NCBI GenBank assembly: GCA_034670405.1
Contig: JAXDDX010000018.1
Span: 372,501 to 436,500 of the forward strand
Origin: Hoplostethus atlanticus
Lineage: Eukaryota > Chordata > Actinopteri > Trachichthyiformes > Trachichthyidae
Length of the DNA: 64,000 nt
Direction: 5' to 3'
Both the position numbers and the translations under genes were made by a program. Below, in pieces: positions 12,166-60,391 of the stretch. The notes under the pieces were generated by a model. It saw only the letters and a list, made by a program, of their open reading frames with translations, was not told the origin of the DNA and made no database searches. Numbering within the stretch: position 1 is the stretch's first letter; each line of letters opens with the position of its first letter.

Positions 12166-12552
12166 GTAACCAAGGGCTAGACTTAACCCATGGCTAGTCT
12201 TCACCCAGGGCTAGTCTTAACTAAGAACTAATCTTAACTAAGAACTAATCTTAACTAAGGGCTAGTATTAACCCAGGGCTAGTCTTAACTAAGGACTAGT
12301 CTTAACTAAGTGCTAGGTTTAACTAAGGGCTAGTCTTCACCCAGGGCTAGTCTTAACCCAGGGCTAGTCTTAACTAAGGGCTAGTCTTAACTAAGGGCTA
12401 GGTTTAACTAAGGGCTAGTCTTCACCCAGGGCTAGTCTTAACTAAGAACTAATCTTAACTAAGGACTAGTCTTAACCCAGGGCTAGTCTTAACTAAGGGC
12501 TAGGTTTAACTAAGGGCTAGTTTTAACCAAGGGCTAGTCTTCACCCAGGGTT
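12166..12552. repeat. 17-bp minisatellite, about 23 copies
   Basis: Units of the form AGGGCTAGTCTTAACTA run in a near-continuous array. Two main variants end in AACTA or ACCC. Some copies have GGTTTAACTA or GAACTAATCTTAACTA forms, implying higher-order shuffling. No open frame crosses the array. Confidence 0.93.
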
Positions 12553-14880: not shown

Positions 14881-15225
14881 AAACAAGAGATCTCCAAATG
14901 ATCTGAAATAAGTGTCATTTAACTTTCCTGCATGAGACCATGAGATTAGAGAAAGATCTCAAAGAAAACTCAATATGATGTATATGATGACTCCTTCTTG
15001 TCAAACATGAACAGTTATCACATCCTGCTGCATTTTCCTATTGAAGCCACGGGAGCAGCAGCCATGTAGCAGGAGCTTATTACCATTATATATGTCACAT
15101 GTTAGCATCTTCACATTTATCTCAAGAAGTCTCAAGGATTTGTTCTGTCTCCTCTTCGCTCCTAAGGGGGTTGAGAGAGACACTTCAGATGGCGCTGATC
15201 ACTTTCTTAAGAGATGAAGAAAAGA
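14881..15225. repeat. Duplicated element, copy A (142-bp core at 15005-15146)
   Basis: This segment is repeated in the same orientation at 56469-56757. The core 15005-15146 aligns gap-free to 56556-56697 with four mismatches in 142 positions. Flanks align less well, with indels, but are anchored by the shared start AAACAAGAGATCT and by the shared end TTTCTTAAGAGATGAAGAAA. No terminal inverted repeats or A tail were seen. It may be an unnamed dispersed repeat or a duplicated conserved noncoding element. Confidence 0.9.
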
Positions 15226-15229
15226 CAAT

Positions 15230-16010
15230 TTACTAGATGCACACACACATATACGTGTACACTAGCGGTCATAAGTCCTCACTTTATCGCAATAATACAA
15301 ACATGATACAAACACATCAAAGACCATCACCAACCTCCACGTACAAGAGTGTGAAAATAACAGACTGGATCAATACTTTGTTTGGCTTGAGAGCAGCTGT
15401 TGGCGGGGAACCGAGATCACAAGAGCTCAGTTTCAATGACCACACTAACAGCTGCACTGAGATGCTGAATGCAGGGAGGAGACCTGGGCTTCTGAGTTGG
15501 GCGGATGCCTTGTGTGCTGAAAAAGCTCCATCTGCTCCTTCGAGTCTTGGATCAGTCCTCAGCATCAGACTGCTTTTGAAATGGTGCCTGGGTGTTTGTG
15601 ATCTACGTATGCGTGGACAAACCCCAGATCAGTTCCAGGTGCAACAGGAAAGAACTGTCCGGACAGTCGGAGGATGCCAGTGATGTGTGAATAAAAAAAG
15701 CATGGTGGAGGATTTGAAGTTCATGCGGTGTTGTTTGATAGGTCTGCCGTTAGGTCTGCCGTTGGGATTACTTTCACCTCTCACCCTCGCGTTCTTGCAT
15801 TAATTCATCAAAACAAATGAGAAAGAAATAGAAGAAATGCTGATGAAGAAAAGATGGTGAGAAGAGGATAAAAGATATGATGGCAAAATTGTGCGAGCGA
15901 GAATGTGGGGCTGCCTGAGAGGGTGGGGAAAATGAAAGAGTTTGCCTCAGAGTCCTCCGTCATTTATGCTTGGAAAAAAAGGAAAAAAACACATAGAGGG
16001 CTCCTGTCTC
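15230..16010. other. Noncoding sequence, possible conserved element
   Basis: A 148-codon frame at 15237-15683 has no known motif. TTGCATTAATTCATC near 15797 is POU/homeodomain-like. Confidence 0.35.
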
Positions 16011-16024
16011 GTTGCCATGGTAAC
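16011..16024. promoter_or_regulatory. Perfect palindromic RFX X-box
   Basis: GTTGCCATGGTAAC is a complete 14-bp palindrome and an ideal match to the RFX-family X-box. No transcription start is known nearby, so it is a candidate distal element. Confidence 0.6.
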
Positions 16025-16029
16025 CCGAA

Positions 16030-19000
16030 GGCTATTATCGTACCTTGCCATTCATTATGAAAGGACTTCAGTTGACAGAGAGAGACGGGAGGGGAGAGTG
16101 GAGGATGGTGTGGTGCATTTTCCTAGCTCACAGCTGGGAAACAGAGGGAAAGAGGGACTGAATGAGTGAAAGCGACACTCCACTACGCAGTGTAGTGCCT
16201 GCAGATCAGCACACTGACACTGAAAATCAGTTTCTGTTGAGTAGACATCAAGAAAATAATATAATGGAAACCTACCCATAATTCCGTTCAGCATGAGGGA
16301 TAGTAAAAATCGACCAATCACGCGAAGCAACGACACGGCGCTGAACACGTCCACATTCGGGCCGCAGTAATTTTGCATGTGGAAGTTGTTGTGTAGCGTT
16401 TTGATAATACTGCGTACTGAAAATACACGTTTAGCAGGGTTAGTGCTGTAGGATCATGTGTGTAGTTTTTGGACGTAGGGTGAGAGCAGGGGTGAACAGG
16501 TTGGCTTTGAGCTGTTTGTTTTTTTTCATCTTCTGTTTGATCGATGCGGTCCTCCACTTTCCCTCAATTTACCACCAGCCGAAGCTCAGCGCTGTGAAGC
16601 TGTGGGTGCTTTTCTCATACGCAGGCCTGTAAATGTGTTGGGACTTGAAACGGTATTTCACTTTGCTAGAATATTAGAACTGTTCACCATACTCACCTAT
16701 GAAGACTGGAACTGGGAGAAATAGCTGCCTTGAGGAGCTGTATTTGTGAGTTTGCTTTTTTCACTCTTCATCCAGCGCCATTGTTTGGAAACTAAACACT
16801 GTACTTTTAACGCACATATAGCAGGGACTACAGCAATGCAGATGCCAAAAGAAACGTGTTATTACATGTTTTAAAAAGGACTGGGCAGCTTCTAGGAGTT
16901 TAACTTTTAAAAATGAAATAAGTTCCTGTTATATCCTGTTGGTCAACTCTAAGTCAACTTCTGTGCTGTCAGTGTAAACAGTGAGACAGATTGCATAGCT
17001 ACAGGCATTGCATGCACCATAGGGCCTGAGAACAATAAATAATCATTTAAAATAATTGCAATATAAAAATGATAATATAATAATAATACTTCTTTACAGA
17101 GAATGCTTATTATATACAGTATATATAGAATACTTTATGAAACAATCTGTTCCAAAACATGAAAAATTCCTTTTTTCATAGTTCATATAGTGTTTAGCTA
17201 CTGTCGAAGGAGTTCATATGGAGGAGAGGATGTTAAACAGTGCTGGCAAAGTTACACACAACACACGTCCCAACAGACATAACTTTGTGCATGGACAGGA
17301 GTTAGCATGTAAGTAACCGAGAGGCGTTCCAGCAGATGATTCAGGAAGCTGTCAGTCTGGTTAAATCATTCTCAGTACGGCTGTCAGAGATCAGCGCCGG
17401 CCCATGCAGTTGTGCTGCTGTTGCTTTCTGTGCGAGGGGAGCGAGGCAGGCCAGTGTGACAGTGCATTAGCAGCCATAGTCCATTCCCTCCGTCCCCAGA
17501 GAAACCAGAGGAGGCATATTAACATTCTCCTCAGAAGAGCCACAGGATCTGCCTTCAATGCCGTCTGACCCCGAACAAAAGACAGTGTGTGCGAGACGCA
17601 GAGAGAGACAGGCCGGGGGTGTGTGTAACTGTGTGAAAGACGAGGAGAAACAGACAGGGAAGGTGAAAGAGGAAGAAGGGCGAGGAGAAGGAGATGAGTT
17701 TCAGAATACATGTACAGGCTGCTGTGCGTGGATTTTGCCCTGCACCGGTTAACATCTCCTCTTCCAACATACTGTAACCTCAGAGTCCTGCAAAAAACAG
17801 AAACCTTTCAGGAATTTAGGAACTGGTTGCTTTTCCCGAGTAGTTTCAACCAAGCAATCTGATTGGTCCCAAGGCCTATTTCAACCATCCTGATGGCTCC
17901 ATGAGAACATAGTATGTACTGCTCTATACGAAACAGGATTGGTTGCTATGTCAACTCTTTTGGTAACCACAGAATTCATGAGCAATTCCTTGTGCTTAGT
18001 CTTCTACTGTTTTCTATTCTTGTTTATGTACTCTTTTTCAGTTAAAGAACATGCACTGGTAAGCACTGTTAGCATAGCAACCAATAACATTTTTGATACA
18101 ACAGCTTCCTGCACTTTACATGCACAGTTGGAACGAGTAGTCATACATCCCATTGCTGCCCTTGTTTCTCTTTCGCCACCCAACCCACAGCAGCTGCCTT
18201 TATCTCTGCCCATTATGAAATATCCATATCAAACAGCATTATTTGCTTTGTTGTTGTGCTGCATCAATAATTTTCCCTCTACAGCCTACTGAGCTTATTT
18301 TGTCAGCCAGTAAAATATGATCATTCCTATATCATCTGTGAACGATAAAAATAAAGTAAAAGATTATTGGCAGCAATACGAGAAAATGGCAGCCCAGCTT
18401 CTCACAAGAGCATGAATGACTTATTCTGTCAACAGTATCCTAGCTGAAGAAATACTTGTCAATAACCTATAAGGTCACGTTCATTAAAAGTGTGAGTATT
18501 TCTGTCTCAAATGAAACATTTCCATTTCTATTTTAGGTGTTTAGCTGATGCTGTTATCCTGGGCGATTTCCAACGCAGCAGTGGAACGAGCTTCCACTCC
18601 TAGATCACCACTATTCCAGGCAACCAATAATAATGTGTGCCAGGCTCACAGCACCCAGACGTATAGATGTAACAAATATTCCTGTGTCCCTAGAATGATC
18701 ACGTATTATGGGGAAACGCTTGGTAAAAAATAAATAGGAATTAGATGCAAAACAGGCAAATCTGCAGTGTTTCAAAACCTTTTTTATAATTGCAGAAGTT
18801 GACAGGATAGGGCCGTTCGGCTTGTTCATGTGCACAGCTTTTGCTGATGTTTCAAGTTCAAGTCTGATTTATAACCAGAAATGTGTGTAGTGATCCATAT
18901 GCAGTGTTTTATAAATCTGAGAACGAGTGTGTTTGCACCTTTTTACCTGCACACACACACACCAACAACTGGAAATAGCATTTTAGTTGTGAATCTGCAG

Positions 19001-19841
19001 GTTTGTGAAGTGAACCACATGATGTATCCAGGGTCTGATCAAATACGACTGTGATGTGCATACTGTTTAGTAGCTCTGACTAAACTGCTCTCTGATTGGC
19101 GTAGCTGGTGGGACTGAGGCTGGGACTCGGATAAAATATTGACAAAATACTGACAAAATATTAACTGTAAAGCAAAGAGAAAAAACATCCTAATGTATAT
19201 TACACAATGCAGGAGCAGAAAAAAAAATAAAACTGACAACCTCAGATACATCGATTTATTCTCAATGGACAGTTCAATGTTTAATACTCCTTGTGATTGC
19301 ATCGGTACAGTTTCTCCTCCGCTGCGTGTCTGACAGGGACGAGGACCTCCTGAGCTCACCACTGTACTGTAAAACTGCACCTCCACCCACTCACATCCAC
19401 ATCCTTTTCACCCACAGCAAAATATAACTTCCACAAAAGATTAAATACAGTAATTGTGTTTGCGCCATGACCTTTATGACACTCATTTATGACAAACGGT
19501 ACATTACTGCAACTCATATTGTATGAATAGTTTGTATATGTATTCTGAAGGACATCTGATGAACAGAAACATTCAAATTGAATACAATACATAGTAAAGC
19601 TGCAGGCTGTCGCATCACAAGGCTAAACTTTGAAAGTAGCAAATGATTTATGTTTTGGTGAGTTATTTATCTACACGATCTGATCAATTTCTGATGTGAA
19701 TTGATGTTTGGAGTGAATGTGAGCATGTGTGAAGCACAGTCTTATTTTTATGATGGGTGTCTGTTCTGAGCACATATGGTCAAGGAATGCAGCGGCTGCC
19801 AAGGAGAGTTATCAGTACTTCTCTTAGCACTGCACTCTACG

Positions 19842-19845
<4 letters not shown>
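16030..19845. other. Noncoding sequence with weak promoter-like and exon-like signals
   Basis: On the minus strand a strong donor (GTGAGTATGG, around 16695) follows a possible short exon. The GC-richer stretch 16300-16620 could be a promoter. Neither can be tied to a gene. The frames at 17391-17770 are compositional. Confidence 0.35.
17942..17955. promoter_or_regulatory. RFX X-box-like site
   Basis: GTTGCTATGTCAAC is a degenerate X-box palindrome, very similar to the site at 9285. Confidence 0.3.

Positions 19846-19847
<2 letters not shown>

Positions 19848-19895
<48 letters not shown>
19848..19895. repeat. (CA)n microsatellite
   Basis: About 20 uninterrupted CA units followed by CGCACACA. 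Confidence 0.95.
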
Positions 19896-20548
19896 TGTAT
19901 GTTCTCTCACATACTCCCAGCACACACTGGCTCCTGGAACTAAACCAGTGATGAGTCAGGTACAGATTGTTCAATATCAAGGTTAACAGGTAACAGTGGC
20001 TGCAGGAATAGGTCACTAGCCTCCACTCCATGACAACGGTGCTATTTTATAACAGGAGTGGTTGCAGTAGGCGTGTAGCTTGCATACTGTGATAAAATGT
20101 GGTAGCTGGGTACAGGCACGTATTGCGATATGGCTGTGCTGGGGCGGTGTTGGCATGGCACAAAACAACAGCGGCAGGAGAGAGAGGCTGGCAAACGCTG
20201 GAGGCTGGGTTAGATGATTTGGGTTGAGTGCAGCAGAGGCGGGGAGCGTGAGTAGCAACAAGATGGCGGCAGTCTGCAGCACAGTGTAGTGTAGCTCTGT
20301 CCAGGGGGAGAAGAGACTCTTAAGCCAGAGGCGTAACCTGCACAGGGCACCTGGGTGCCAAGTATCACAGGGAGTTGGAGCCGGGCCTTTCCACGGGGTG
20401 GGGCAGGCAGAGTGGCGCCAGCACCCAGAGGAGCACAGATAGGTGAAGGGGGCGCGAGAACAATAGAATGGCTGCCTCCCAGACAGAGCTGCCGTACTGC
20501 AGCGTGATAAGAGAAGGGGAAGGAGAGGGGGGTGGGAGGTAGACACAC

Positions 20549-20729
20549 CTGCTCCTGCTGCTGGAGCTACAGCAACTAACCCAGCAGCAGGCAGAGTGAA
20601 TCGAAACGGAGTTGAGCTACATTCACACGCGAGTCCAGCCTCTCATCCAGGGAGCAGAGGGCATCTCAGGTCTCTCTGAGAGCATGGGGGGTGGGGTAGG
20701 GGCAGTGAGTTCACGGCACAGGGGAAGAG
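20549..20729 (-). ncRNA. Candidate exon of the microRNA host transcript, downstream of miR-125b
   Basis: On the minus strand a strong pyrimidine tract and acceptor (CATCTGTCTTTTCCAG) precede 20729. A possible donor (GAGCAG then GTGTGTCT) follows 20549. The only frame open at the start closes after 34 codons and shows no known motif, so a noncoding exon is more likely than a coding one. It lies about 3.6 kb downstream of miR-125b on the same strand, where a later exon of the host would be expected. The donor is weak, so the exon could instead be terminal and longer. Confidence 0.35.
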
Positions 20730-20935
20730 CTGGAAAAGACAGATGAAGATGCAAGAATACACTCACTGACATATGCAGTATACTCACATGACACAAAAAG
20801 TATTTATTCATGCATTCGGAAGGTGAAAAGGTATACTGCATCTGAAATGTTGAGGTTTGCTCCCAATATCTTCACTCATAAACCTTCCAGGACTTAATAC
20901 CTCTAAAACAATCACATTCTAAAGCATTAATAAAA

Positions 20936-20954
20936 GTGTGTGTGTGTGTGTGTG
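20936..20954. repeat. (TG)n microsatellite
   Basis: Nine to ten TG units. Confidence 0.9.
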
Positions 20955-21570
20955 CTGGCCTATACATTACATTGGCATCAGTCTGGAGATTAATGACAGT
21001 GACTAGTACAGGCATTATAAAATGAATAAGCGCGTTTAAACTCCAATTCAGCGACAACATCCATAGTAGTTTATTTAGTTTGAGAAAGGCTGCATCATTC
21101 AAATCTCACAACAAAGCGTTGTTGACATTCCTGCCACGCCTGCTTGGTCAGTCAGCCCGCGAATGACTGACAGTATGAAAGCGCATGCACTGTTGAATGC
21201 TCGTCTGTGAGGTAACCATTATCTGAATAACATCTAATTACATGTAAAGCACAACGTGTGTAATGCAGTCTGACGTAGAAATGGAAACACAGCACAGGCT
21301 CGCTCTCTGGTATTTATGTTCTTCCTTTCTTTGTCCATCAGTCTCCGCCACACTGTGACCTTGTCTATACACTACACCTGCAATGACACTATAATGTGGC
21401 AACACACATCAAGCGAGTCATCACTGGAAAACACCGGAGGATCTTTAGTGCCGTCAATAGTCGGCCATTTTACTACTTGGAGAAAATATGGCAGAGACGA
21501 GGTGGCAGTGCTGTGGTGGAACGTCTCGTCTTCGTTCATTTTGTGGAACGTGTTTGCGCACGCTCGCTCG

Positions 21571-21574
21571 CACA

Positions 21575-21611
<37 letters not shown>
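21571..21611. repeat. (CA)n microsatellite with CG interruptions
   Basis: CACACGCG followed by about 15 CA units. Confidence 0.93.
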
Positions 21612-21613
<2 letters not shown>

Positions 21614-21993
21614 TGATGAGAGGACTTGGGGTTGCATGTCCTCTCAAGGTACAAAATCCAATCCAAAAGTGAGAATAAAATGCCTCGGCCAACTTGTGCG
21701 TAACTGCAAACACGGAACGTCGGCACCTTTCATCCTCTTTAGTTATTACTTTTGTGTCAAAGGATACGATAACGTTGCAAAACCAAACACAGAAATCAAA
21801 TCCGGTATCAATCTACAAATATTCCACGTGTAGCCGCTCCCTCTCTCTTACTTGCTGTCTCTCTTCCTGTATTTCTCTCAGTCTGTGTGTCTGCTGGCTG
21901 AGGCAAACGCTGCCCTTCTGACACCATAACCTACTGCTGCAGACCTGCTGCTCTGAGCGGGAAACCCCTATTGAACTGAGTTGACCCCACATG

Positions 21994-22008
21994 CCACCAG
22001 AGGACAGC
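21994..22008 (+). promoter_or_regulatory. CTCF-like motif, one mismatch
   Basis: CCACCAGAGGACAGC differs from the core CTCF consensus at one position. Confidence 0.3.
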
Positions 22009-22255
22009 ATCACACATACAGTATATACATATACACACATACATAAATGTGTGTGAACCTTTTGGGCATACGCAAATAATAGAAAGCAGATTGATAATAC
22101 ATACAATAATCTGAAGCCACGTGTGCCCGAATAAAACGTTAGGGTTTTATTAGGTTAAACATCTTTGTAGACACATACGTAAGAGAAGACATGCTCAGAC
22201 AGTAGCATGTTTATAGCCACCTACATCCACACAAGATAACGTATGTGCACAGATA

Positions 22256-22257
22256 AG

Positions 22258-22288
<31 letters not shown>

Positions 22289-22289
22289 A
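22256..22289. repeat. (CT)n microsatellite
   Basis: About 15 CT units with one CG interruption. Confidence 0.93.
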
Positions 22290-23418
22290 CTAACTGACTC
22301 GTTTTCACAGGCAAGCCTCTGAGAGTTGCAGAGATTATATTGCGATAACACAAGACATCAAACCCCTAAACCTAAACCACTCCAATACGCACATGATCCC
22401 CAAGATGGAGACAGCAGCAGTGATGTATTGCAAACCACGGAAATGGCAGATCATGGCATGCACAGAAAGTTGGATTCAAGATCACAGATCAGTGTGACAC
22501 CCTACAGCAATCATTATCACGTTCTACTGCGAGTTCAGTACAATTATTAGCAGAGAAAAGAATACATTCAAGTTATTTGTGTCTATTTTGTTTCATTTGC
22601 AGTAACAGGATGATTGAAGGTCCATTTAATAAATCATACCCTTGTTTGCTTACAGTCAATCCTCATAGAGATACGATGAAATGCAACAAAGCTAGAAAGA
22701 CAAACTCCCAACAAGATATCAATATGACCTCCAGAGTGTTTGACCACATACTAAAAATGCCTACTTAATGAATCTGTCCAACTCTTTCAGCATGGGAGGT
22801 TCGTAACAATAAAGGGCAGTCATCTCTTTAGCTGTTCATGTGATACGGCTGAAAATACCATCAAATCTCGAATGAAAGCTGACTATCTGCTGACTATTAG
22901 AGCTCACTGAAAGATACTGCACACACAAGGAGCTACTTCAGACTGTGGCTGGAAAAGGGAGGACACATAAAGGGTTGCCGTCACAGATCACCAACCAATT
23001 ACAGAGAGAGAGAGATCCTCCTCCCAGCCGGGTTTCGACATATTTTAGGAGGAGAACTGTTGAGTATTGAAATTAACCCTCCTTAGCATCGCACAGTGGA
23101 TTACACCAGCTGAGGACCTGGGATGATCCCACCTATTGGCCAACGTATCAAAAAGCTTTCATCTATCACGGTCTCATCCATTCTCTCTTTCCATCACATC
23201 CATTATCACATGGCATATTTTCACATCTCAGCACCATCCTGCTCCGTAGTTTTGTGATGTATTAAAGGGCACGGCGCCCTGCTGCACACTAGCAAAAGTA
23301 GCTTACTACTTCAGTTTCACTATCCATCCCTTTCCAGATGGGAAACGGCTTTGTAGAGGATGCTTATCATTAACACCCACATGGATGCGTATCCACCATG
23401 CATGCCACACATCACACA

Positions 23419-23419
<1 letters not shown>

Positions 23420-23449
<30 letters not shown>
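23420..23449. repeat. (CA)n microsatellite
   Basis: About 15 CA units, followed by a short GATA run. Confidence 0.93.
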
Positions 23450-23451
<2 letters not shown>

Positions 23452-23856
23452 TAGATAGGTGCACTGGGCACAGTGGTAGACAGATGAGAATTTCCATGAG
23501 GTCAAACACAAGTGTACTGAGCTTTCAGTGTCACGCTCTCACCAGTACTTTGTGCAGCTCTCAAGATAAGGCATGCAGCCGATGGTCAGATGGAGTAGAG
23601 CAAATATTAACTGGGATGAATTCTCTGTTTCTTCTCCTATTTATATAGAAAACATAAGGTTTTTACACTTTACAGTAAGACTATCTGTGCACTGCTACAT
23701 TGTCCAACTCATCTTATTGTATTTGTTCTATTCTTTGCAGTCACTACATTGTCTTCAATAACTGCTATCTTATTGTAGACCAATGCTGCCAAGTTGCATA
23801 CATGAATGTATATTGGTATACTGTAGTCAATGTGTATGTGTGAACTAATGAATGTG

Positions 23857-23886
23857 TATATATATATATATATATTTTTTTTTTTT
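23857..23886. repeat. (TA)n and poly(T) tract
   Basis: About nine TA units run into a T12 run. Confidence 0.9.
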
Positions 23887-24327
23887 CATGTGTCTATAGG
23901 TCTAGTCTCTTATAGCCTCCTGTATGTCCTTGTGCCATATGTGTATGCTATTATGTGAAACAATGGGGGTTTGGAAAATGTGTCAGCATGTCGCCATATC
24001 ACCCCACCTAGTCTGGTCATCCCTCCATCCCAGTCACATGTGCTTCATACCCACATTCCACTATCCATCGACCCCCCGCCCGTACCCGACACACTGCGCC
24101 TCCCTCTGGGTCTAACCCTCCATATCCGAAAAGAAACTCAACGTTCTTCCCTTTCTTTTCCCGCTACCTCTCTTTCCTCCGTGTGGGTGGATCAAGTGAG
24201 CATTCCTCGCCACCATGCCTAGCTGACTTAAAAAAAAAAAGCCATGTCTTCCCTCTTCTTTTGCGCTTGGTGTCCTTCCGCCATGTTAAGTCTTTTCTGG
24301 CGTTACAGGTTTCCTAAAGAGATGTGT

Positions 24328-24413
24328 GAGTGCCCCTCGCAGCTCCCAAGAACCCAACCCGTGCACATCACAGCAAAACGTCACAAGTTAGGGTCTCAGG
24401 GAATGAGAAGGGT
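24328..24413 (-). ncRNA. mir125b: miR-125b precursor (mir-125b-1 type)
   Basis: The precursor lies on the minus strand. The 5p product occupies 24381-24402 and begins UCCCUGAGACCCUAACUUGU, which is exactly miR-125b (seed CCCUGAG). The 3p arm at 24341-24362 begins ACGGGUUGGGUUCUUGGGAG and pairs with the 5p arm across an 18-nt loop. The 3p arm is close to the mir-125b-1 form of mammals, with two substitutions as I recall it. The product loads into Argonaute and represses targets by seed pairing; the family (lin-4/miR-125) acts in developmental timing and neural and muscle differentiation. It is the last member of the cluster in transcription order, about 4.8 kb downstream of let-7a, and is inferred to lie in a host intron after the exon at 25355-25415. 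Confidence 0.97.
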
Positions 24414-24959
24414 ACAGATAGTTTTTTTTTTTCGTCTGGCCTTTCCTAAGCCAGACTGATAGGACATCTGCTGCTCGGCTGCCATGACTGATAACGGAGC
24501 AGACAATGGCAGCTTCCTCTCTCCTTCGTGCTAGAGCGCTGCACCCTAGGTCTCAGTTTTGTCGCACACAGTAAGTCCAATCTGGTCACGGTAAGTCAGG
24601 GTCTGCACAACCCCATCTCCCACGCATGGGTGTATCCATAACACATAGCATATATGCACAGATATACACACATACAAAACAAAAATATGTCATGGCATTC
24701 TAGTCGAATACCGATACACACCACCAGCACACTGAATGCAAAGAGTATAGTACAAAAACTGAACACACACTTACACACACTGCAGTCACACTGGATGCCC
24801 ATTCACACCCAGACAGACAGCACTTCATTATCACATGATGATCATAGGAAAGGCTCTGCCTCAGTATGTTTTGGCCTTTCTGTCACAGCCCCAACCTGGC
24901 TGGTCCAAAGCGTGGGATCGATAATGAAATATCTCTGATCTCTAACTTAAAATAATGCG

Positions 24960-25000
24960 CGCAGACACACGCGCGCACACACACACACGAGCGCGCACAC
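24960..25000. repeat. CA/CG alternating tract
   Basis: The sequence ACACGCGCGCACACACAC and a later GAGCGCGCACACG form an alternating purine-pyrimidine stretch. Confidence 0.85.
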
Positions 25001-25263
25001 GCTACAGTAGCAGTCAGATCATCAGGGCTGCAGCAGACACCCAAAATGGATTGCCAGGGTCTCGCTCTAATGAAAAATCCCTCCCCTTCAGTTAAAGAAC
25101 CGATGTTCCTAATCACCTACATTCCCACTAGAAGATCTCCCACCTCTAGACATGCCAAGCCCCTCCCCCCTCTCCGAGACTGCACCTGTCAATCATGCTG
25201 CTGTGACTTTATGCATGTAAAACTTATTTGTCAGGTGGACAGAATGAGGTCTCGCTGTCTGAA

Positions 25264-25308
25264 AGACGGGGGAGGAAGAGGAGGTGGGGGTGGGGGAGGG
25301 GGAGGGGG
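25264..25308 (+). other. G-rich tract with G-quadruplex potential
   Basis: Runs of five or more G separated by single A or T residues satisfy the four-run quadruplex pattern on the plus strand. It lies between the candidate host exon and miR-125b; in the minus-strand transcript this is C-rich. Confidence 0.7.
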
Positions 25309-25354
25309 GTGTCACGAGACTCGATTAGAAGAGAGCGAAAGAGAGAAAACTCAC

Positions 25355-25415
25355 CCAGCTGACCGTGGTGGCTGAGGCTGCCGCAGTCCTCTCTGTGTGC
25401 CTACGCCGGGTTAGC
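25355..25415 (-). ncRNA. Candidate 61-nt exon of the microRNA host transcript
   Basis: On the minus strand the acceptor TCTGTCTCTTCCTCTGCTAG precedes 25415 and a strong donor GTGAGTTTT follows 25355 (AGCTGG then GTGAGT). Both signals are near consensus. Two frames contain stops; one is open but shows no protein motif. The exon lies between let-7a (3.8 kb upstream) and miR-125b (0.94 kb downstream), as expected for a spliced noncoding host. Confidence 0.55.
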
Positions 25416-25625
25416 CTAGCAGAGGAAGAGACAGATGATGTGGCGAGAGAAAATGGAAAGAGAAGGGTGTGAAGACAGGAAAAGGTGGAGAGGGGAGTAG
25501 AGGAATAGATTTTAGTGCTGCCTGCTTAGGCTTTTGTTGAATGGATCCTTCGGGCTAGCACATGAGGCTGCTGTAGCAGATTGCTGCTGTCTAGCCGTCT
25601 GCTGCTCAGACATGCAAGACTCCAC

Positions 25626-25670
25626 CATGTGCAGTGAGAGAGAGAGGGAGAGAGAGAGAGAGAGAGATGG
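25626..25670. repeat. (GA)n tract
   Basis: Imperfect GA repeats, continuing as purine-rich sequence to about 25750. Confidence 0.9.
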
Positions 25671-26653
25671 AAGAGAGGGCAGGTGAGAAGTTGAAGGGTT
25701 AAAGTAGGTGAACGAGAAATAGAAAGAGAAAGAGAAAGGAGGTGAGAACAGATCGAGAAAAAATGGAGGAACGAATCCACCAGACAAAGAGACAAAGTAG
25801 CTAATGGAAAACAGAGGAAACAAAAACGAAATCATTTTTAAAAAACTGTCTCTAGGAGAGCAAAATGCAAGAGGATGTAGGCACCAGTGGGGGAAAAGGC
25901 ACGCACTAGGAAAAAAGCCAAGAGCAGATCAATGGGCCTGTACTGCTGCATGCTGACTATCAAGAGAAAGAAAGGAAGAGAAAGAAAGGGAGGAAAGAGT
26001 AGCAGAAAGGAAGAAGTAAAAACGACTAAATGCATTCACATAACCTACTTCCTACAAAGATAAGTTGCTTGACAAGAGAAATAAAAGCCCAATACATACA
26101 GTACACCGATACACACCAACACACACCGGCATGCTGCAAACCGCACAAACCAATTACATGTAAACGTACGCACAATCTCTGCGCACCTTAAAGTTTTCCA
26201 CGTACCACGCAGCTCCACGTCCAGCCCCAGACAGAAAAAACAAACGGAAGCTCCCACAATCATCTGATTTTTTTTTTTGTTGCAGAGACGGTTTAAGAGC
26301 TATGGAAATAGAAACAGAAGCAGAGCCCCAAAACAGCAAACGGCAACTGAATAATAGGAAAGAATGTGTCAACGCCTGTTGCTGTAGCCTCTCCTGCCCA
26401 CTGCTCCTCACCCCTCGTCTCCATGTGACACTACTACCCATCTTTTCCTCCTCTTTTTCTGTCTGCCGGCTCCATCTGTCTCACATTTTCTTTCTGTTCT
26501 CGCTCTGCGCTCAGACCTCCTTTAGTCTCACTGTATCGCACCTCTCTGTCTCTGTCTGTATTTTCCTTTCCTCCTCTGCCTGCATGCTTCATGGATTGCA
26601 GGCTTAAGTCCCCAGGGCAGAGAAACTGTAGACTCCCTGCTTGCCCATACCCT

Positions 26654-26693
26654 AACCCCCCCCCCGTCCCCCCGTCCCCCCTACCTCCATCCC
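26654..26693 (-). other. C-run cluster, G-quadruplex potential in the minus-strand transcript
   Basis: The plus strand has runs of ten, six and six C separated by GT-type spacers. The minus-strand RNA therefore carries long G runs. It lies in the inferred intron between let-7a and the exon at 25355-25415. Confidence 0.7.
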
Positions 26694-27813
26694 CGGCCTG
26701 TTAAAGACAGCATCCAACAGCAGTAGCAGAGCGGGGGAAAGAGAAATAAATATCATCCATTCATTTCCTCCCACAGCTGAAATCAGTTAGACTCAAAAGG
26801 CCCACTACGCAGAGAAGGAGAGATAAGGAGAGGTGGAGGGAGAGAGAGAGGCAGAGCACAAAAGAGGAGAGAAAGAAAGTCAATCGCATTTTTGTCTTAC
26901 AATGTCTCTTTTCAAGCTCCTTTTCATTAAAAGAGGAAAAAAAAATCAGAATCCTCCTCCAGTCAGCAAAGTCCGGTACTCGGTTCCTGTCTCTCTCTCC
27001 CTCTGTGTCTGTGAGAGTGACTGGGTATTAGAGCATGTGTTTCATGGAGAAAAGGAGGGTGGGAACAAGAGAAGATTGAAAGAGAAAAGGAGGGAGCAAG
27101 GGAGAGAAAATGCGTGAGTGAGTTCAGGGAGTGGTAAAGGGAAATGTAACCAGAATACCGGTGATGTGGTAGTCCAATATTTTTATCAATATTAGCTGTT
27201 GTGAAGCTGCAGAAAATGGGCATGAAAAAAAAAGGACAGGAAAAAGATGGTAGGTAAGCGAGACAAATGGGGAGGAGAGGGAATTTGCCGCAGCAGGGTT
27301 CTTCTGACGGACAACACGCAGTGGGCTCAGATCAGTGACAGGAGAAAAATGGCCTACATAGTCTCACACTCTCTTCCTCTTTTCCTCCAGTGAGTTTAAC
27401 GGATTTCTGCGAGAGCTTATTCGCTGTAATTTCAAAGTAAATCAGAAAAAGGACCAACCAAAGCAGAACATATTTACTTCAGCTGCGTTTTCTTTTCTTC
27501 TTTTTTTCTGCGCGCTGACATCCGAGTCAGCAGAGTCTCATCCATTTTGTCTTTTCTATGCCAGCGTGTTTCTAAAGCTGGTATTTCTCTGGGTCACAGA
27601 CGTCACATGCTATGTTGGCTCATCACATCACATGCACTTCAGGCAGCGAAGAGTTCGTTCCTGTAATCCCCGTTTTACAGAGAATCGCTCTCTCTCTCTC
27701 CCTCCGTGTCCTCTCGCGCTACACTGTCGCCACACAAAGAACTAACATTAGAACAGTTAAACCAGACTATTTATAGAAATACTCAATGAAGAGAAAACCT
27801 ACATTTAGATTCC

Positions 27814-27846
27814 AGCGGAGAGAGAGAGAGAGAAAGAGAGAGAGAC
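27814..27846. repeat. (GA)n microsatellite
   Basis: GA repeats with one AAAG interruption. Confidence 0.9.
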
Positions 27847-27903
27847 AAGGCGGAGCTGCTGCTGTATACTGTCACACACCCTACGGCCTCAACACTAGAT
27901 CAG

Positions 27904-27928
27904 ACACACACACACACACACACACACC
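27904..27928. repeat. (CA)n microsatellite
   Basis: About 12 CA units. Confidence 0.9.
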
Positions 27929-27929
27929 A

Positions 27930-29200
27930 AACCAAAACACTTTTATCTGACCAGCCTGACTAAGCCTGATTATGTACTGAGGCAAACACTGATAGATTCT
28001 CATCACTTTTCTCGTACTGTAGTTGCGGCCCCACACCAAGGGCCCCCACTCTATACTGGACATCATCACACCACTCCCTGCTCTACCCCCTAGTCCACCG
28101 CAGTCCACCGCACTAAGCCCACTCCTGGAGGCTACCACTATCATCTCTCTCTAACAAGGGCAGCATCCACTACCTTACTCTAGCTGTGCCTGTGCCCCAA
28201 AAGAGTGGGATCAGTTGAGTTGAGGACTAACATGGCAGAACAAATGAAGCGAGTATAATTTTCTATCCGAACTGCGTTATTCGCAGAAATCAAGCAGCAA
28301 CTCTAGTTTCATTTTTCAGCGAGCGCTTATTGACAGGAACCCATAACTGAAAGTCCAACATCTCAAAGGTCAGGAGCGTAGAAAATGACAGAGAAGGTAA
28401 ATTTAGCCGCCCCAACAGAGATCAAAACTAAACGTCACACAGTTTATTACAAAGCTCAAGCAACTTGGAAATGCCTCAGACAGAGTGATGCACGGTACCA
28501 ATAATGTGCTTATGTTACATTTCTCAGCCACCTAAATGATTTCAGAGATCAGTGCTTTTCTTGACTCGATGCAGTGAAAGTAGTTACTGGCGGTTTTGAT
28601 CACAGCAGTGTCTTTACCACATAGCTGTGTGGAGGAAGTATGTCGTTTTGGTTAAGTGAAACTGAACTTTGTACAAAATTGGCTGCCAAGTCCAAGTTCT
28701 TCCCCCTGCGGCTGTATGGTTTTTCCCCTCAGTGGCATCTCTTTCATTAGAACGGGCCACAATCATCGCTGCTCCAGCATGTTGGTGCTCTTTGCCCATA
28801 TTTCCGCCTCCATTGTCTTTCGATTTTCACTGACTCATCTTCTTTTTATCGCCCCTTACTGTTGTTAATTCTTGTTCGGTCTCATCGCCACACACACGAT
28901 TGCGATGATGAATTTTTGCAACGTTCATTCTAGACGGCGCAGTAAATTTTTTACTTCCTCCTGTGACCTAGAAAAAATGCGGACTCTATTTCAATTTTTG
29001 GAAATTTTCTGGTTTTTTTTGTGAAACTTAAAGAACATTATTTTGGGACCAGACAACATGCACAACACCCCTTATATAGAAAATAGTGTAATTACAGTAT
29101 ACTCTCTGTCTGATGAACCCAGTGACTTCGCCCAATATTGCGATGTGGAAAAAGTAAAAACCGAAGGAATATTCCATAAATATCCAGAGTGTGTGGTGTT
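27930..29200. other. Intronic sequence of the inferred host, nothing else recognised
   Basis: No exon signals, transposons or motifs stood out. The reading frame starting at 29043 on the plus strand runs antisense through let-7a and is not a gene. Confidence 0.4.
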
Positions 29201-29203
29201 TCC

Positions 29204-29278
29204 TCAGGGAAAGCTAGGAGGCTGTACAGTTATCTCCTGTGGTGTCACTCTAAACTATACAACCTACTACCTCAGCCT
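29204..29278 (-). ncRNA. let7a: let-7a precursor (let-7a-2 type)
   Basis: The precursor lies on the minus strand. The 5p product at 29253-29274 begins UGAGGUAGUAGGUUGUAUAG and is identical to let-7a (seed GAGGUAG). The 3p arm at 29208-29229 begins CUGUACAGCCUCCUAGCUUU, the arm specific to let-7a-2. The loop retains GGAGAUAA, which contains the GGAG motif and the GNGAY-type element bound by LIN28. The product promotes differentiation and represses growth regulators such as LIN28, RAS and HMGA2 in vertebrates. It lies only about 0.4 kb downstream of miR-100 and is inferred to share its intron. Precursors of this genomic cluster type are processed without prior mono-uridylation in mammals. Confidence 0.98.
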
Positions 29279-29325
29279 GCGGAACACTGTCTGCTGGAAA
29301 CTGGAGGACGGCCAGCATCTGGAGT

Positions 29326-29337
29326 GGGGGGGGGGGG
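29326..29337. repeat. Poly(G) run
   Basis: A run of ten or more G lies about 50 bp upstream of the let-7a hairpin on the transcribed strand, where it reads as C. Confidence 0.9.
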
Positions 29338-29650
29338 TCGCTGTCAGTACATAAAGATGAGGCAGGTAGGACAAGGTTTTATACTACTGAAGTTGGGGTT
29401 GGAGCGGTTGAGGACATCAAGTATCAAGGCCGTTTGATTGTACTTTTGGATAATGCCCAAAATATGGTGAGGTTTAAGTGTGGGAACACAGGTGGGGGTA
29501 AGTGGTGTTAGGGATGAGTATACACGAGACAGCAATGAAGTCTAACCATAATCATCTATCTAGTCCAGACCTGCTTCTAAGGTAGTCACATTCTGCTGGT
29601 ATTTTTTTATTTATTTTTTTTTACATGCGAAGGGCAGGTGCTGTACTGGC

Positions 29651-29729
29651 CGGGTAGACACATACCTATAGATACGAGCTTGTGCAGCCAGTCACCACAA
29701 GTTCGGATCTACGGGTTTGTGGCAGCTGG
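29651..29729 (-). ncRNA. mir100: miR-100 precursor
   Basis: The precursor lies on the minus strand. The 5p product at 29696-29717 begins AACCCGUAGAUCCGAACUUG and is identical to miR-100 (seed ACCCGUA). The 3p arm at 29661-29682 begins CAAGCUCGUAUCUAUAGGUA, one substitution from the mammalian 3p arm as I recall it. The arms pair across a short loop and the stem continues outward. miR-100 belongs to the ancient miR-10/99/100 family, shared by bilaterians and cnidarians, and represses targets such as mTOR in vertebrates. It is the first member of the cluster, about 1.25 kb downstream of a candidate host exon. Confidence 0.97.
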
Positions 29730-29739
29730 CATTACCTCT

Positions 29740-30980
29740 TCAGGAGCGAATCAAGAGGAAGGGACACACACATGGAAACAAGAAAGCCATTCTATTATCT
29801 CCACCCCTAAACTCCACCCCTCCCATTAGAGGTACTACTGGGCTTACAAGCAAACTTGCCACAATGAACATTATAGTATTTATTGATTGGTTTAAAATGT
29901 TGATAACTATGCACAAGGTCAATATCCTGCATTGTTTTGGGTGAGCTGTTTATACAACAAAAACAATTCAAGGTCAAGGTCATCTGATTTGTCTTCTATC
30001 TGATTTGTCTATCTTCATTTTTACTCATCAACTACTTACAATATTTAGAGAAAAATCCTTGCCTGGTATTAAAGGAAAGAAAGGAAAGGAAAAAAAATAT
30101 GTCTATATACATTTACAGTTATAAAACGAAGAGATTTTGTAATCTTGGGTAGACAAACAACTATCATATATTATTTATTTACTTCATTAAATTAGATCTT
30201 CACAATGTGGCTATAAACCTTCTGTCCTATTCACATTACTGAGGAGAGGCATGAAATATAACTATGAACGGGACAGATGGACGTGGTGTTAGTATAACGT
30301 ATTGATCACATAGTTTTGGGACTCCATATTAAATTCTGAAAGAGAAGAGAGAATAATAGATGATGTTTTATGTCTGGCCATTATAACATAGATTGCCAAT
30401 TACAAAGGCCTGATTTCAAAATAATCTATATGCCACTTTAGTCTAAACTGAGTGTTATTATATGAAATATTACAATATTAATAAAATGACTATTACCAGG
30501 CCGATTGTATTGTATTGTATTGTACTGTAAAAACCGAAACAAGGATAATTGCAATCACTAGCAGAGACAAAAAAAGCTAATTCTACAAAATATCGGACAA
30601 CTCCAGGTAAATATTTAACTATGAGTGAGTGTGACTGTGAATTCATATTAAACCGCACTTGTGCAAAATACTGAACGTGATGACAATTTGAATTTGGCAT
30701 AGAAAATCTGTATTGTTACCGTGTAATTATCACCTAAAATACCTTTTTTCATAATTCTTATAATACTGTTCATTAACTTACTACCTTTTACTAATTCACC
30801 AAGAATAAACTATAAAATATTTGGTGCGTACAGTGTACACAAGACAAACAGCAAGTACCATCAAAAATGTGCAGTGCCTGAACAAATCTTGAGGTACAAA
30901 TTCTTAGGGTGGATTCAACGCTTATTAAACTATACTGTACCAAGATAACAGAAAGTATAAGTATAATGAAATGCCAACAT
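29740..30980. other. Inferred host intron upstream of miR-100
   Basis: The sequence is AT-rich, with a short (TGTAT)n run near 30507-30526. No other feature was seen. Confidence 0.4.
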
Positions 30981-30982
30981 AC

Positions 30983-31088
30983 CAGTGGGGCACAGGCTGG
31001 ACTGAATTGGTCAGACATCCTCTGGCATCAAAATGGAGTCAGGCTTGGGGGGCACTGTAGGCCGATCCTCCAGCAGAAATGCAGAAAC
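30983..31088 (-). ncRNA. Candidate 106-nt exon of the microRNA host transcript, upstream of miR-100
   Basis: On the minus strand the acceptor ATATCTGTTTTTCTAG precedes 31088 and the donor GTATGTTGG follows 30983. Two of three frames close early. The third reads 25 residues (ending PPKPDSILMPEDV) before a stop and resembles no protein I know. Its place 1.25 kb upstream of miR-100 supports a host exon. No plus-strand alternative is convincing. Confidence 0.5.
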
Positions 31089-42164: not shown

Positions 42165-42335
42165 TAACTTATTGCACTTTTACCTTAGCACAGGTTCTGC
42201 TCTTAGATGCTTGTTTAGGAAGGAAATGCACTTATGATTTCTGGTGACTAGTGGTTCTCTTGCCTTGAATGCACTTATTGTAAGTTGCTTTGGATAAAAG
42301 CGTCTGCTAAATGCCTGTAATGTAATGTTTACATA
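42165..42335 (+). mobile_element. LINE or SINE 3' tail (L2/HpaI-like)
   Basis: GCTTTGGATAAAAGCGTCTG then CTAAATGCCTGTAATGTAATG is the widely shared 3' tail of L2-type LINEs and of the SINEs they mobilise in fish. Upstream body sequence is compatible with a LINE 3' UTR. Confidence 0.7.
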
Positions 42336-43183: not shown

Positions 43184-44158
43184 TCCTTTGACCAACTGTA
43201 CATTTCACACCATCGGTTCTCAATGGGATTGAGATCAGGACTCATCACTGGCCACTCCAGAACAGTCTAACGTTTTCCCATGAACCATTCCTGATGCTTT
43301 TGGCTGTGTGTTTGGGGTCATTGTCCTGCTGGAGGACCAGTGACCTTCGATTGACACCCAGTTTTCTGACACTGGGTAGCACATTTCACTCCAAAATGCC
43401 TTGGTGATCTTCTGATTCCATGATGCCCTTAATACGTTCAAGACATCCAGTACACGAGACAGCAAAGCATCCCCACAGCATTATGAACCTCCACCGTATT
43501 TGACAGTAGGTAGGGTATTCTTTTCTTTAAAAGCTTAATTTTGTCATCTGTAAACAAAGTTCTGATCTGCATTGCCAAAGAGCTCTAGTTTGGTTTGATC
43601 GGCCCACAGAACATTTTCCCAGAAGGATTTAAGTTTGTCCCCCTGTTTGGCCTCCGACCGTAAAGCCCTTCTTGGTTCAGTGTCCGGTGTATCATACGGC
43701 TGAAACCATTACCCCAGACCTCTCCAGGTCAGCCTTGAGATCTTTGGATGTCATGTGTTTTCCAATGGCTCACACCAACCTTCGATGCCACCACATTCTG
43801 AGAGATTATTAACAATTCCATGTGCAGCAAACTTCTTAATATTTATATTTAATAACATTGAACTGTGGAAACAGAATACCAAGGTCTTTAGAGATAGCCT
43901 TACAACCTTGTGAACGCTTGGTGTTCACAGTTTTCTGACATCCTCAGACAGCTCTTTTCTTGTCACCATTTTTACAGACGACCAGGGAAGCAGAACAGAC
44001 TGTTTTATCACTTTAAAATTCATTTAATTCCCACATGGTTCATTAATACCATGTGGGAACTTGCAGCCAGGTGAGTTAAATTACACTGCAAATGAGAATT
44101 TGAGAACTCCAACAAAAGTGATTTGAATTGTTCTAAAGGGTGCCAATAAGTCCAGTCC
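43184..44158 (-). mobile_element. Tc1-like DNA transposon, 3'-truncated copy 1
   Basis: On the minus strand the element starts with a TIR containing TTATTGGCACCCTTT. Its transposase is broken into frames. It retains the first catalytic Asp segment (WENVLWADQT), the second (QQDNDPKH) and the third-residue context (DLNPIEN), i.e. a DD34E Tc1 family. Homology to copy 2 stops abruptly near 43184, so the transposase C terminus and the far TIR are missing. A hairpin at 44028-44059 sits between TIR and coding start and is absent from copy 2. Confidence 0.88.
44028..44059. repeat. Perfect 12-bp inverted repeat (hairpin) in the Tc1 copy
   Basis: TTCCCACATGGT (44028-44039) and ACCATGTGGGAA (44048-44059) are exact reverse complements around an 8-base spacer. 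Confidence 0.9.
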
Positions 44159-46669: not shown

Positions 46670-47922
46670 TTGTAGCCACGGACATAATTATTGCACCCTT
46701 TGGAACAATTCAAATCAAATAAATTTTGATGGAGGAAATAGATTCTCAGTGTAATTCAACTCACCTGTTACAGTCGTTCTGCTTCCCTGGTCATCTGTGA
46801 AAATGGTGAATAGAAAGGAGCTGTCTGAGAATGTCAGAAAAACTATTATCACCAAACATAAGCCTTCACAAGGCTGTCTCTAGAGACCTTGGTATTCCTG
46901 TTTCCACAGTTTGCAATGTTATTAAGAAGTTTTCTGCTCATGCAATTGTTAAGAATCACCCAGAAAGGTTGGTGTGACCCATTGCAACATTGAAAAAAGA
47001 TCTCAAGGCTGACCTGGAGAGGTCTGGGGTAATGGTTTCAGCCTGTACCATACACCGGACACTGTACCAAGAAGGGCTTTATGGTCGGAGGCCACGGAAG
47101 ACCCCACTGCTGAAAGAGAAACACAAGATGGCCCAATATGCCAAGACCTACCTGGACAAACCTAAATCCTTCTGGGAAAATGTTCTGTGGACCGATGAAT
47201 CCTAATTAGAGCCCTCTGGCAATGCAGATCAGAACTTTGTGTACAGACGACAAAATGAAGTCAAATAGTCAGTCAAATACGGTGGAGTTTTCATAATGCT
47301 GTGGGGATGCTTTGCTGCCCCTGGTACTGGAAGTCTTGAATGTATTAAGGGCATCATGAAATCAGAAGATTACCAAGGCATTTTGGAGCAAAAACAGGGT
47401 CTCAATCGAAGGTCACAAGTCCTCCAGCAGGTCAGACCCAAAACACATCCAAAGCCCCCAGGAATGGTTCAAGAGAAAACATTGAACTGTTCTGGAGTGG
47501 CCAACGATGAGTCCTGACCTCAATCCCATTGAGAACCAATGGGGAGACGTGAAATGTGCAGTTGGTCAAAGGAATCCTTCAAACATTGAAGAACTGGAGT
47601 GGGTTGCAGTTGAAGAGTGGGAGAAACTGTTAGCAGAAAGGTGCCCGAAGCGTATTAATAGTTACAAGAAAGGTTTGGAAGCAATCATCATTGCAAAAGT
47701 GTAACTAAGTATTAGAAAAGGGTGCCAATAATCATAGCCGTAGCCACTTTTCAATTTTGACGCCATAAAAAAATGTTTTAAAATATTTGTATTCTTATTG
47801 TTTGATCATGTTCTGTTAACTAAAACAGATCAAAAGTTGATTCAATTTCCAATTATTTCAGAGGATGTTGTACATTATCTGTATAGAATGCAAGGGTGCC
47901 AATAATCTTAGCCAGAACTGTA
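46670..47922 (+). mobile_element. Tc1-like DNA transposon, copy 2 with both ends
   Basis: Plus-strand element with a left TIR (TTATTGCACCCTTT, 46688-46701) and right TIR repeats at about 47717-47750 and 47893-47922 (GGGTGCCAATAAT), resembling the inner and outer direct repeats of IR/DR-type Tc1 elements. Frames read LYQEGLYGRRPRKTPLL, ENVLWTDES (first Asp), MLWGCFAAPGTGSLE and SPDLNPIENQWGDVK (third catalytic Glu). The second Asp motif QQDNDPKH is destroyed by an indel near 47430-47447, and stops and frameshifts are present, so it cannot encode an active transposase. It lies in inverted orientation to copy 1, about 2.5 kb away. Confidence 0.92.
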
Positions 47923-56468: not shown

Positions 56469-56757
56469 AAACAAGAGATCTTCAAATGATCTTAAATAAG
56501 TGTCACTCTCTCCTGAATATGAGAGGTGTTTGATCTATGATGTTTTATGACTCACACATGAACAGTTATCACATCCTGCTGCATGTTCCTATTGAAGCCA
56601 CGGGAGCAGCAGCCATATAGCAGGAGCTTATTACCATTATATATGTCACATGTTAGCATCTTCACATTTATCTCATAAAGTCTCAAGGATTTGTTCTCTC
56701 CGTTATCTCCTCTTTGGGGGTTTTAGGAGAAACATTTCTTAAGAGATGAAGAAAAGA
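56469..56757. repeat. Duplicated element, copy B (142-bp core at 56556-56697)
   Basis: This is the partner of 14881-15225, in the same orientation. The core has 138 of 142 identical positions and no gaps; flanks are more diverged and shorter by about 56 bases overall. Confidence 0.9.
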
Positions 56758-56759
56758 TG

Positions 56760-59745
56760 ACTGAGCAAAAATTTCTGATCTGAAGCGGGATCTCAGGACT
56801 TGGTACGTTACATTAGCTGCGTAGAGATCCTCCAAACGAAGAGATGGCTGGTAACTGTCGAAACCAGGGGAACTAGCTGCTCTGACAGCTGGGGTGGTAA
56901 AGAAAGGGAGCACTTAAGCACGTGTGTGTGTGTGTGCGTGTGCATGTGCATGTGGGACGGTTGTGGTACTGGGTGAAAGAGGTGTGTTTTTTCCACCCTG
57001 AGGGGCCTCAGGCTGGGGAAGGGTGAGGCGGAGCTTTGGGGAGGCGCACATGGGGCGGGCTGTTTCAGCTGAACTCAGTGCACTGTAACAGCGCTCGGGG
57101 CGGGAGGTCATAGAGTCCAGCATTCCTCTAGAGCGATGTCTGTTTACACGACTGCCGCTGTGCAGGGGGGAGGTGGCAGCTCTGCATAACTACACCATCA
57201 GATAACACTCATTGCTTGCATTTATGTACATCATCGGCCAGGGAGATAAGACTCCTTTATTCATTGTTTCAAATGTGGGAACGTTTTCAGAAATTATATG
57301 TTTTAACCCACTCATTCATACACACAAATTCCTCAAGTCAACAATGGTTTCAGAGTAAACCTAACTGAAGAAACAGGCTTCTGGCTGGCCTCAAAGTATG
57401 TTTGTGCAGTAATACAGCACAGTGATATACTGCATGCCGCCGCATATCACCCTTGTGTAAATCACATACAGAGAGATAGTGAGAGTCTAAGCCTGCTAAG
57501 CCTGTGATATGACTGGGTGAACTCAGCACAACCTTGGGCTGAGCAGTGATCAGTGAGACTGGAGCAGTGATGGGTAACTAGCAATTTGTGAGCCACATCT
57601 GGTAGCGGCACTATTTTTTGCCTATATGTGTGCAGTAACAGGCACCGGTGCTTAAACTATTTATGTTTTATGATTGCATCTCTGTCAGATGAACATAGTG
57701 ATAGCAAGAGGTCTTGTCCAATGCTCTCTGGGTTTACGACAGCCTCTAGGCATGTCACAGACAAATGTCACGCATCATATATTATCAGACTTGTCATTTT
57801 TCATTGAACAAGCTCTTTTGAAGGTTTATTTTAACAATTAACTCAAATTTAGGATACATTTAGCCTAAATATATATAATACAATGCACAAAATACAACGC
57901 TTCATTCTTATTAGAACAGAATCTAAAAGTTAAATGATACTCAATAATACATAATATCCAATCATCTCTGTTACAAATGTTAGTCCATGTAAAATATAGA
58001 CTATAATACTGAAGATCATAGCAATCTTCTGCACGTTACCTCTACATTAAGTGTACTGTATGTAGAAATACACAGCCTCCAGCCCCTAGTAACTACATGG
58101 CCAAAAGCGGCATCATATTTGCCCGTCCCTGGACTGGGCTAGGCCAAACCTGAGCTGAGATTATCTAGGCTCAGTTAGGCTAAAGAGGGCTGGTTTGGCC
58201 TCGTCTGAAATGAGCCGAGCTTATCGGGTTATTTATGTAGGAATGGGTTGAACTTGGCTGAGCTGAATCTCTCTGCTGGGCTCTCTGCTTGGCTGACCTT
58301 GGCTAATCTGGGCTGAACTTTGACTGTAGCTCCTCTGTGCTGCGGCTTTCACATCGCAGAGCCTGGAGGCCAGCTGGTCAGCTCCAGGGGAGTACAACAG
58401 AGATGGGGAGTGACACCCAAGCCCCAGAGAGACAGTGCTCTGACTGTACTGTGGACTTGGGAGGGTGCTATGGCTGTCAAAGGCCCCATTGTTTGACAGG
58501 CCAGCATGGTTTCACATGCAGCACATGATTCTCGCTGTGGGTCTGAACTGCAGCCCAGTCTGACCTAAACTGTCCGGGAGGATGTAGCTGTGGCCTCCCT
58601 GGGCAGGTTAAAGTGTAACCGTGTCCGTGTTTTCTCAGGAAAGTGTGTTTATCTAGAGGACCAACACGGAGGCCCTTTTGTTTAACTAAGTAGAAAGGCT
58701 CGCCCTAAAAGTAAAGCTCTCTGAAAACACACAGGAACCAGGTGGCCCTTCTCTGTTCCATTTACTGCTGGTTATGTACAGTGTACATAAGAGTGTGTTT
58801 CAATGCTTGTACACATGTGAGAAGAAGCATAGGACAATGCAGATACTGTACATAGAAAATTAAAGGTCAAACAAATCAGTCAGCAGGACAGAGGAAACCT
58901 GAGCTGAGATGTTTTATCCTCAACAATGCAAACTGCATTTAATGAAAGTGCGCAGAGGCACCTATCCACTGCGGGGAGTAAAACAGCTGCAGCCAATTAA
59001 ATGCAAAGTAGTGTGAGGTAAATGATTGAGCACAATGTGGCACCGTTCAGCATGCTGCAAAACTGGTTAGATGAGTTTCTGAGGTGTTTCTAGAGAGGCG
59101 GAAGGCATTATCCATCACCAACAACTATACGGCTGACTGAGGCACAAAGAAAAATGTCAAACCTTGAAGATTTTGATGGATACAACTTGAAGGATTTCAT
59201 TCCAAGCCACATTATTTTGAAAGATAAATTCCATGAGTTCTTTGTTTTCAGAAATACAGTATATTATAGTTTTGTTATATTTGTAAGCAGATATCTTACA
59301 ACTAAAATATTATCTTATTGTGAGTTTTACTTTCATGTCATCAATGTTAAATCGATCCAAACTGGATATATTTAAAAAATGTCTGTATGGTAGTACTTTT
59401 GGTAAAGTAGCAGAAACTGGAAAAGACTACAATGAAAACATTCAGTGTATGGGCATATGTGCTGTTTTCAGTTGGATATGTGTTGTACATTGCCCTGAGG
59501 CAGAAACTGCAGAAGACATTTGAGACATTCTCCAGGGTTACACTTTGGCCTGCATCTTTTCAAGAATGGTACAGTATGTACTGTCCTTAGGTTGTTAGAG
59601 CCAAAAGCTGTTACTTATTTTAGTGTTTGAAATTATTTTGAATCTCCTGATACGACAGGTCATGCCTTGACAGAAGAAGTCAGAGGCATCAAGTTAAGAC
59701 ATGTTATCCGAAAAGTTTGAGGGAAAAAATAAAGAAGTTTGAAAT
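56760..59745. other. Noncoding sequence, mildly GC-rich
   Basis: A GT repeat lies at 56920-56940. From 58130 to 58330 there are imperfect repeats of GGCTGA/GGCTAA words. The 63-codon plus frame at 58337-58528 and the frames at 59154-59523 show no family motif. Confidence 0.4.
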
Positions 59746-59750
59746 GTTAG

Positions 59751-60391
59751 TGTGGCAGACTGGGGGGGAGGGAGTGGGTGAGGCGTAGGCTGGATCCAGG
59801 GGAGTCGAGTCAGTGGACTGATCCTCCCTGGATCCAGCACGGCTGCGGCCAATTAAGGCTGATTGCAGCCCGGCCCTTTTAACCTGAGTGTGTGACTGTG
59901 TGAGGGAGAGCGGTTGCGTCAGTGTGAGAGGCTGACGGAGTGAGTCTGAGTTCGACAGCAGACGAGGGAGTCGACTGTCTGCAGGATGGAGCGGAGAACG
60001 AGACCAGCAGCAGTGACCGAGCGAGGTCCGCGGCTGGGTTGCCGGCGAGATGCGCAGGCGGGAGAGACAGAGTGGGGAAGCGGCCGTCTCCAGCAGCGAC
60101 GACCGAACCAGGGAGGATGCGACCGGGAGCAGTCTGGAAGAGCTGCCCAGTCGGGCTTGGAGCAGGACGCTCCTGGAAGCCTGGTGGACTGGCAGCTTTG
60201 GTGCCAGCTTTGGTGCTGACCTGCCGGGACGGAAGGGAGGTGCGCCAGCTGAGGGAGACGGCGCCAAACACCTGCCGTCAACACCGGGTCGTATTATTCA
60301 TTGCTATGTTGCAAATAAAACGACCCTGCTGGCCCGTTAACTCTGCCCTCCTGCCTGTGTCTCTGTCTGTCACGGACCCGATATCATAACA
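59751..60391 (+). mobile_element. GC-rich dispersed element, possibly a solo LTR
   Basis: The block is much more GC-rich than its surroundings. It starts TGTGGCAGAC and ends GATATCATAACA, i.e. TG...CA ends. It has a TTTTAA-containing promoter-like stretch near 59878 and an AATAAA signal near 60315, shortly before the end, as in an LTR R/U5 region. A clear target-site duplication was not found. Frames on both strands are compositional. Confidence 0.5.

Follow-up and report, generated by a model that had tools for sequence, protein, structure and literature searches.

A conserved mir-100/let-7a/mir-125b microRNA cluster on the minus strand of a Hoplostethus atlanticus contig

Three microRNA hairpins lie on the minus strand of the window, by which we mean the whole 64-kb stretch of DNA that was analyzed (C18:372501-436500). 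Sequence matching places mir-100, let-7, and mir-125 on this one strand, with the transcriptional order running from mir-100 through let-7a to mir-125b. The 22-nt mature 5p sequences are exact in all three cases, with miR-100-5p at 29717-29696, let-7a-5p at 29274-29253, and miR-125b-5p at 24402-24381. Each of them has a single exact place, on the minus strand, and the next best place in the 64 kb carries at least five mismatches. In addition, the 3p arm can be read in all three hairpins. The spacing is uneven: from 5′ end to 5′ end, mir-100 and let-7a are separated by 443 nt, while let-7a and mir-125b are separated by 4872 nt. An earlier note on this DNA had claimed exact 5p sequences that begin at 24402, 29274, and 29717, along with the minus strand, readable 3p arms, and distances of about 0.4 and 4.8 kb, all of which were borne out by direct sequence match.

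Searches with Rfam models recovered two of the three hairpins above cut-off. At curated cut-offs, Rfam returned three matches across the 64 kb, which belonged to the mir-10 family, let-7, and UnaL2. The mir-100 precursor (29655..29724, 3p arm at 29682-29661) matched the mir-10 family model RF00104 with 73.8 bits (E 7.9e-17, cut-off 47.5), while the let-7a precursor (29204..29280, 3p arm at 29229-29208) matched the let-7 model RF00027 with 64.6 bits (E 3.4e-11, cut-off 53.5). No Rfam model rose above its cut-off at the mir-125b precursor (24330..24412, 3p arm at 24362-24341), for which the best score was 24.7 bits against mir-10 in a permissive search of 23000-31000. Similarly, a search of the genome for the lin-4 family yielded no matches among the 69 scored of 23897 candidates. 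Despite its sub-threshold Rfam score, we accept mir-125b as a hairpin because it combines an exact 5p sequence, a 3p arm, and a strong fold. The permissive search listed six matches in total. One of these, SCARNA7 at 27872-28027, was dismissed, since it scored 21.8 bits against a cut-off of 65 and overlaps a CA repeat.

Folding, one of the checks that the earlier note had proposed, produced stable hairpins at all three loci. Specifically, folding energies were −29.1 kcal/mol for mir-100 (29645-29734, z −2.21), −37.0 kcal/mol for let-7a (29198-29286, z −4.95), and −41.2 kcal/mol for mir-125b (24317-24412, z −4.58). Shuffled sequences were at least equally stable in 8 of 200 cases for mir-100 and in 0 of 200 cases for each of the other two. 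When 6392 80-nt windows from both strands were ranked by energy, the top minus-strand windows for mir-125b and let-7a stood at ranks 27 and 40, and the minus-strand windows of mir-100 at ranks 293 and 330. The folding energy of mir-100 is thus unremarkable within the window and fails by itself to single this hairpin out. Given ranks of 27, 40, and 293, folding supports the hairpins but cannot alone identify them; it is the exact sequences that do so.

Motifs associated with microRNA processing were distributed unevenly as well. TG and CNNC serve as Drosha signals, while GGAG is a LIN28 signal. Both mir-100 and mir-125b have TG at −14/−13 from the 5p start, with CNNC at +18 and +17 past the 3p arm, respectively. 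At let-7a, there was no TG at −14/−13, and CNNC occurred only at +10 and +12, off its usual place; its terminal loop holds GGAG.

The window has 54 open reading frames of at least 100 amino acids, and none of the 30 that were compared with Pfam had a match at E ≤ 0.01. As far as these 30 frames go, this is consistent with the earlier description of the window as gene-poor. UnaL2, the 3′ end of a LINE linked to fish, was found by Rfam on the plus strand at 42266-42320 (59.9 bits, cut-off 55). Four pairs of inverted arms, 66-111 nt long and 84-91% complementary, connect 43205-43996 with 46776-47547, which are probably two copies of a mobile element in opposite orientation. Furthermore, a tandem array of about 22 copies of a 17-bp unit occupies 12167-12541, and a 175-nt direct repeat that is 90% identical between 15001-15175 and 56552-56726 is probably a dispersed element.

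The arrangement of the three microRNAs is a familiar one. In human MIR100HG, the trio is spread over much longer distances than at the locus described here. Nevertheless, mir-100, let-7a-2, and mir-125b-1 are shared between the two, and compared with the human sequences, the 3p arms differ by one base from miR-100-3p, by none from let-7a-2-3p, and by two from miR-125b-1-3p. The identity with let-7a-2-3p supports the name let-7a-2, which the earlier note had used, and the third hairpin is of the mir-125b-1 type. According to PMC9544809, the human trio sits within introns of MIR100HG. Among fishes, PMC5372658 reports a mir-100/let-7a/mir-125 cluster from the teleosts under study, listing medaka, fugu, and Tetraodon along with two zebrafish clusters (mir-100-1/let-7a-2/mir-125b-1 and mir-100-2/let-7a-4/mir-125b-2), with which our locus shares all three families in the order given there. 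In Drosophila, the let-7-Complex likewise encodes these three families (PMC9247461). The earlier note took the order to be the ancient one of bilaterians, and it is indeed that of the fish clusters. PMC5372658 also suggests an origin of the cluster after the divergence of lampreys, which fits poorly with the amphioxus cluster that it tabulates. Spacing of the mir-100/let-7a/mir-125b cluster is not mentioned in the excerpt of PMC4159003, and we found no literature joining MIR100HG, zebrafish, and let-7a-2.

Taken together, our results indicate, with a probability of roughly 95%, that the locus is an intact orthologue of the mir-100/let-7a-2/mir-125b-1 cluster. Its conservation suggests that the cluster is functional. 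Sequences, hairpins, strand, order, and spacing can be read directly, and its transcription, processing, expression, and targets are inferred. RNA polymerase II transcription proceeding from right to left would carry all three hairpins, most likely within one long noncoding transcript, as in human MIR100HG (PMC9544809) and the Drosophila let-7-Complex (PMC9247461). Drosha and Dicer would excise miR-100, let-7a, and miR-125b, after which the mature microRNAs would repress target mRNAs through Argonaute, as they do in other bilaterians. Where such a transcript begins is a matter of speculation; one possible host promoter is a CpG-rich stretch at 59701..60300, about 30 kb upstream of mir-100. Two 400-nt rows (59701-60100 and 59901-60300) had CpG observed/expected ratios of 0.81 and 0.85 and GC contents of 0.59 and 0.65, compared to 0.369 and 0.418 for the window as a whole. 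The row between them failed the CpG filter, and one other row passed it (21301-21700, GC 0.49).

We consider it reasonably likely that the trio is carried by a single shared transcript. Yet an uninterrupted transcript is not certain, because AATAAA hexamers occur on the minus strand between the hairpins, at 29615 and 29611 in the mir-100/let-7 interval and at 28448 in the let-7/mir-125b interval. Alternatively, the hairpins could be intact while mir-100/let-7a and the distant mir-125b arise from separate or alternative transcripts. Along with the hexamers, the 4.9-kb gap that follows let-7 is in keeping with this arrangement, as are transcripts of the human locus, some of which, according to PMC9544809, contain miR-125b-1 without let-7a-2 and miR-100, and others miR-125b and let-7 without miR-100. 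We view separate transcripts as the less plausible arrangement, however, given that order and strand are conserved and that such hexamers are common, with 11 AATAAA or ATTAAA sites on the minus strand of 15000-31000.

It is very improbable that the putative products of the locus include antisense microRNAs as well. On the plus strand, the let-7 hairpin (29202-29283) scored 86.5 bits against Rfam mir-3596, which is under the cut-off of 96, and the mir-100 hairpin (29656-29725) scored 47.2 bits against mir-10, where the cut-off is 47.5. The 70 nt of the mir-100 precursor folded with −29.5 kcal/mol on the plus strand versus −25.5 kcal/mol on the sense strand. These plus-strand scores probably just reflect the palindromic nature of hairpins.

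There is little to recommend two other interpretations of the locus. Since teleosts own several paralogous clusters, including mir-99/let-7c, according to PMC5372658, the locus could belong to the mir-99/let-7c/mir-125b-2 type. We rejected this interpretation, which we regard as highly unlikely, on the basis of the 3p arms. The 5p sequence is exactly that of miR-100, and the 3p arms fit human let-7a-2 (0 mismatches) and 125b-1 (2 mismatches), whereas miR-99a-3p fits worse (4 mismatches) and 125b-2-3p has no place on the minus strand within 6 mismatches. Even less credible is a decayed, nonfunctional copy, which we rejected because all three mature sequences are exact and the hairpins are intact.

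The orthologous cluster is one of many places in this genome where let-7 is found. In this respect the genome differs from that of the fly, which has a single let-7 locus. Across the 632.8-Mb genome, at least 21 let-7 matches exceeded the cut-off (21 of the 22 matches listed), which is a lower bound because 57 of 95069 candidates were scored. Eight of these loci, some of them overlapping, were fetched and correspond to six distinct let-7 pairs, which by mature sequence we take to be two a/b pairs, two e/a pairs, one g/h pair, and one a/f pair. Pairs of these four kinds also stand in the fish table of PMC5372658. Taken with the UnaL2 match, this let-7 complement suggests that the DNA is that of a teleost. 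Furthermore, a stand-alone let-7 locus (C25:4034672-4034748) is 77 nt long, equal in length to the let-7a hairpin described here, and may be a duplicate of it.

Our analysis shows that the annotation in the earlier note was correct, and that the cluster is conserved, ordinary, and of an already known kind. As such, it raises no new question. Protein-based pipelines would overlook a cluster of this type, and the short distance between mir-100 and let-7 may serve work on the processing of microRNAs that lie in clusters.
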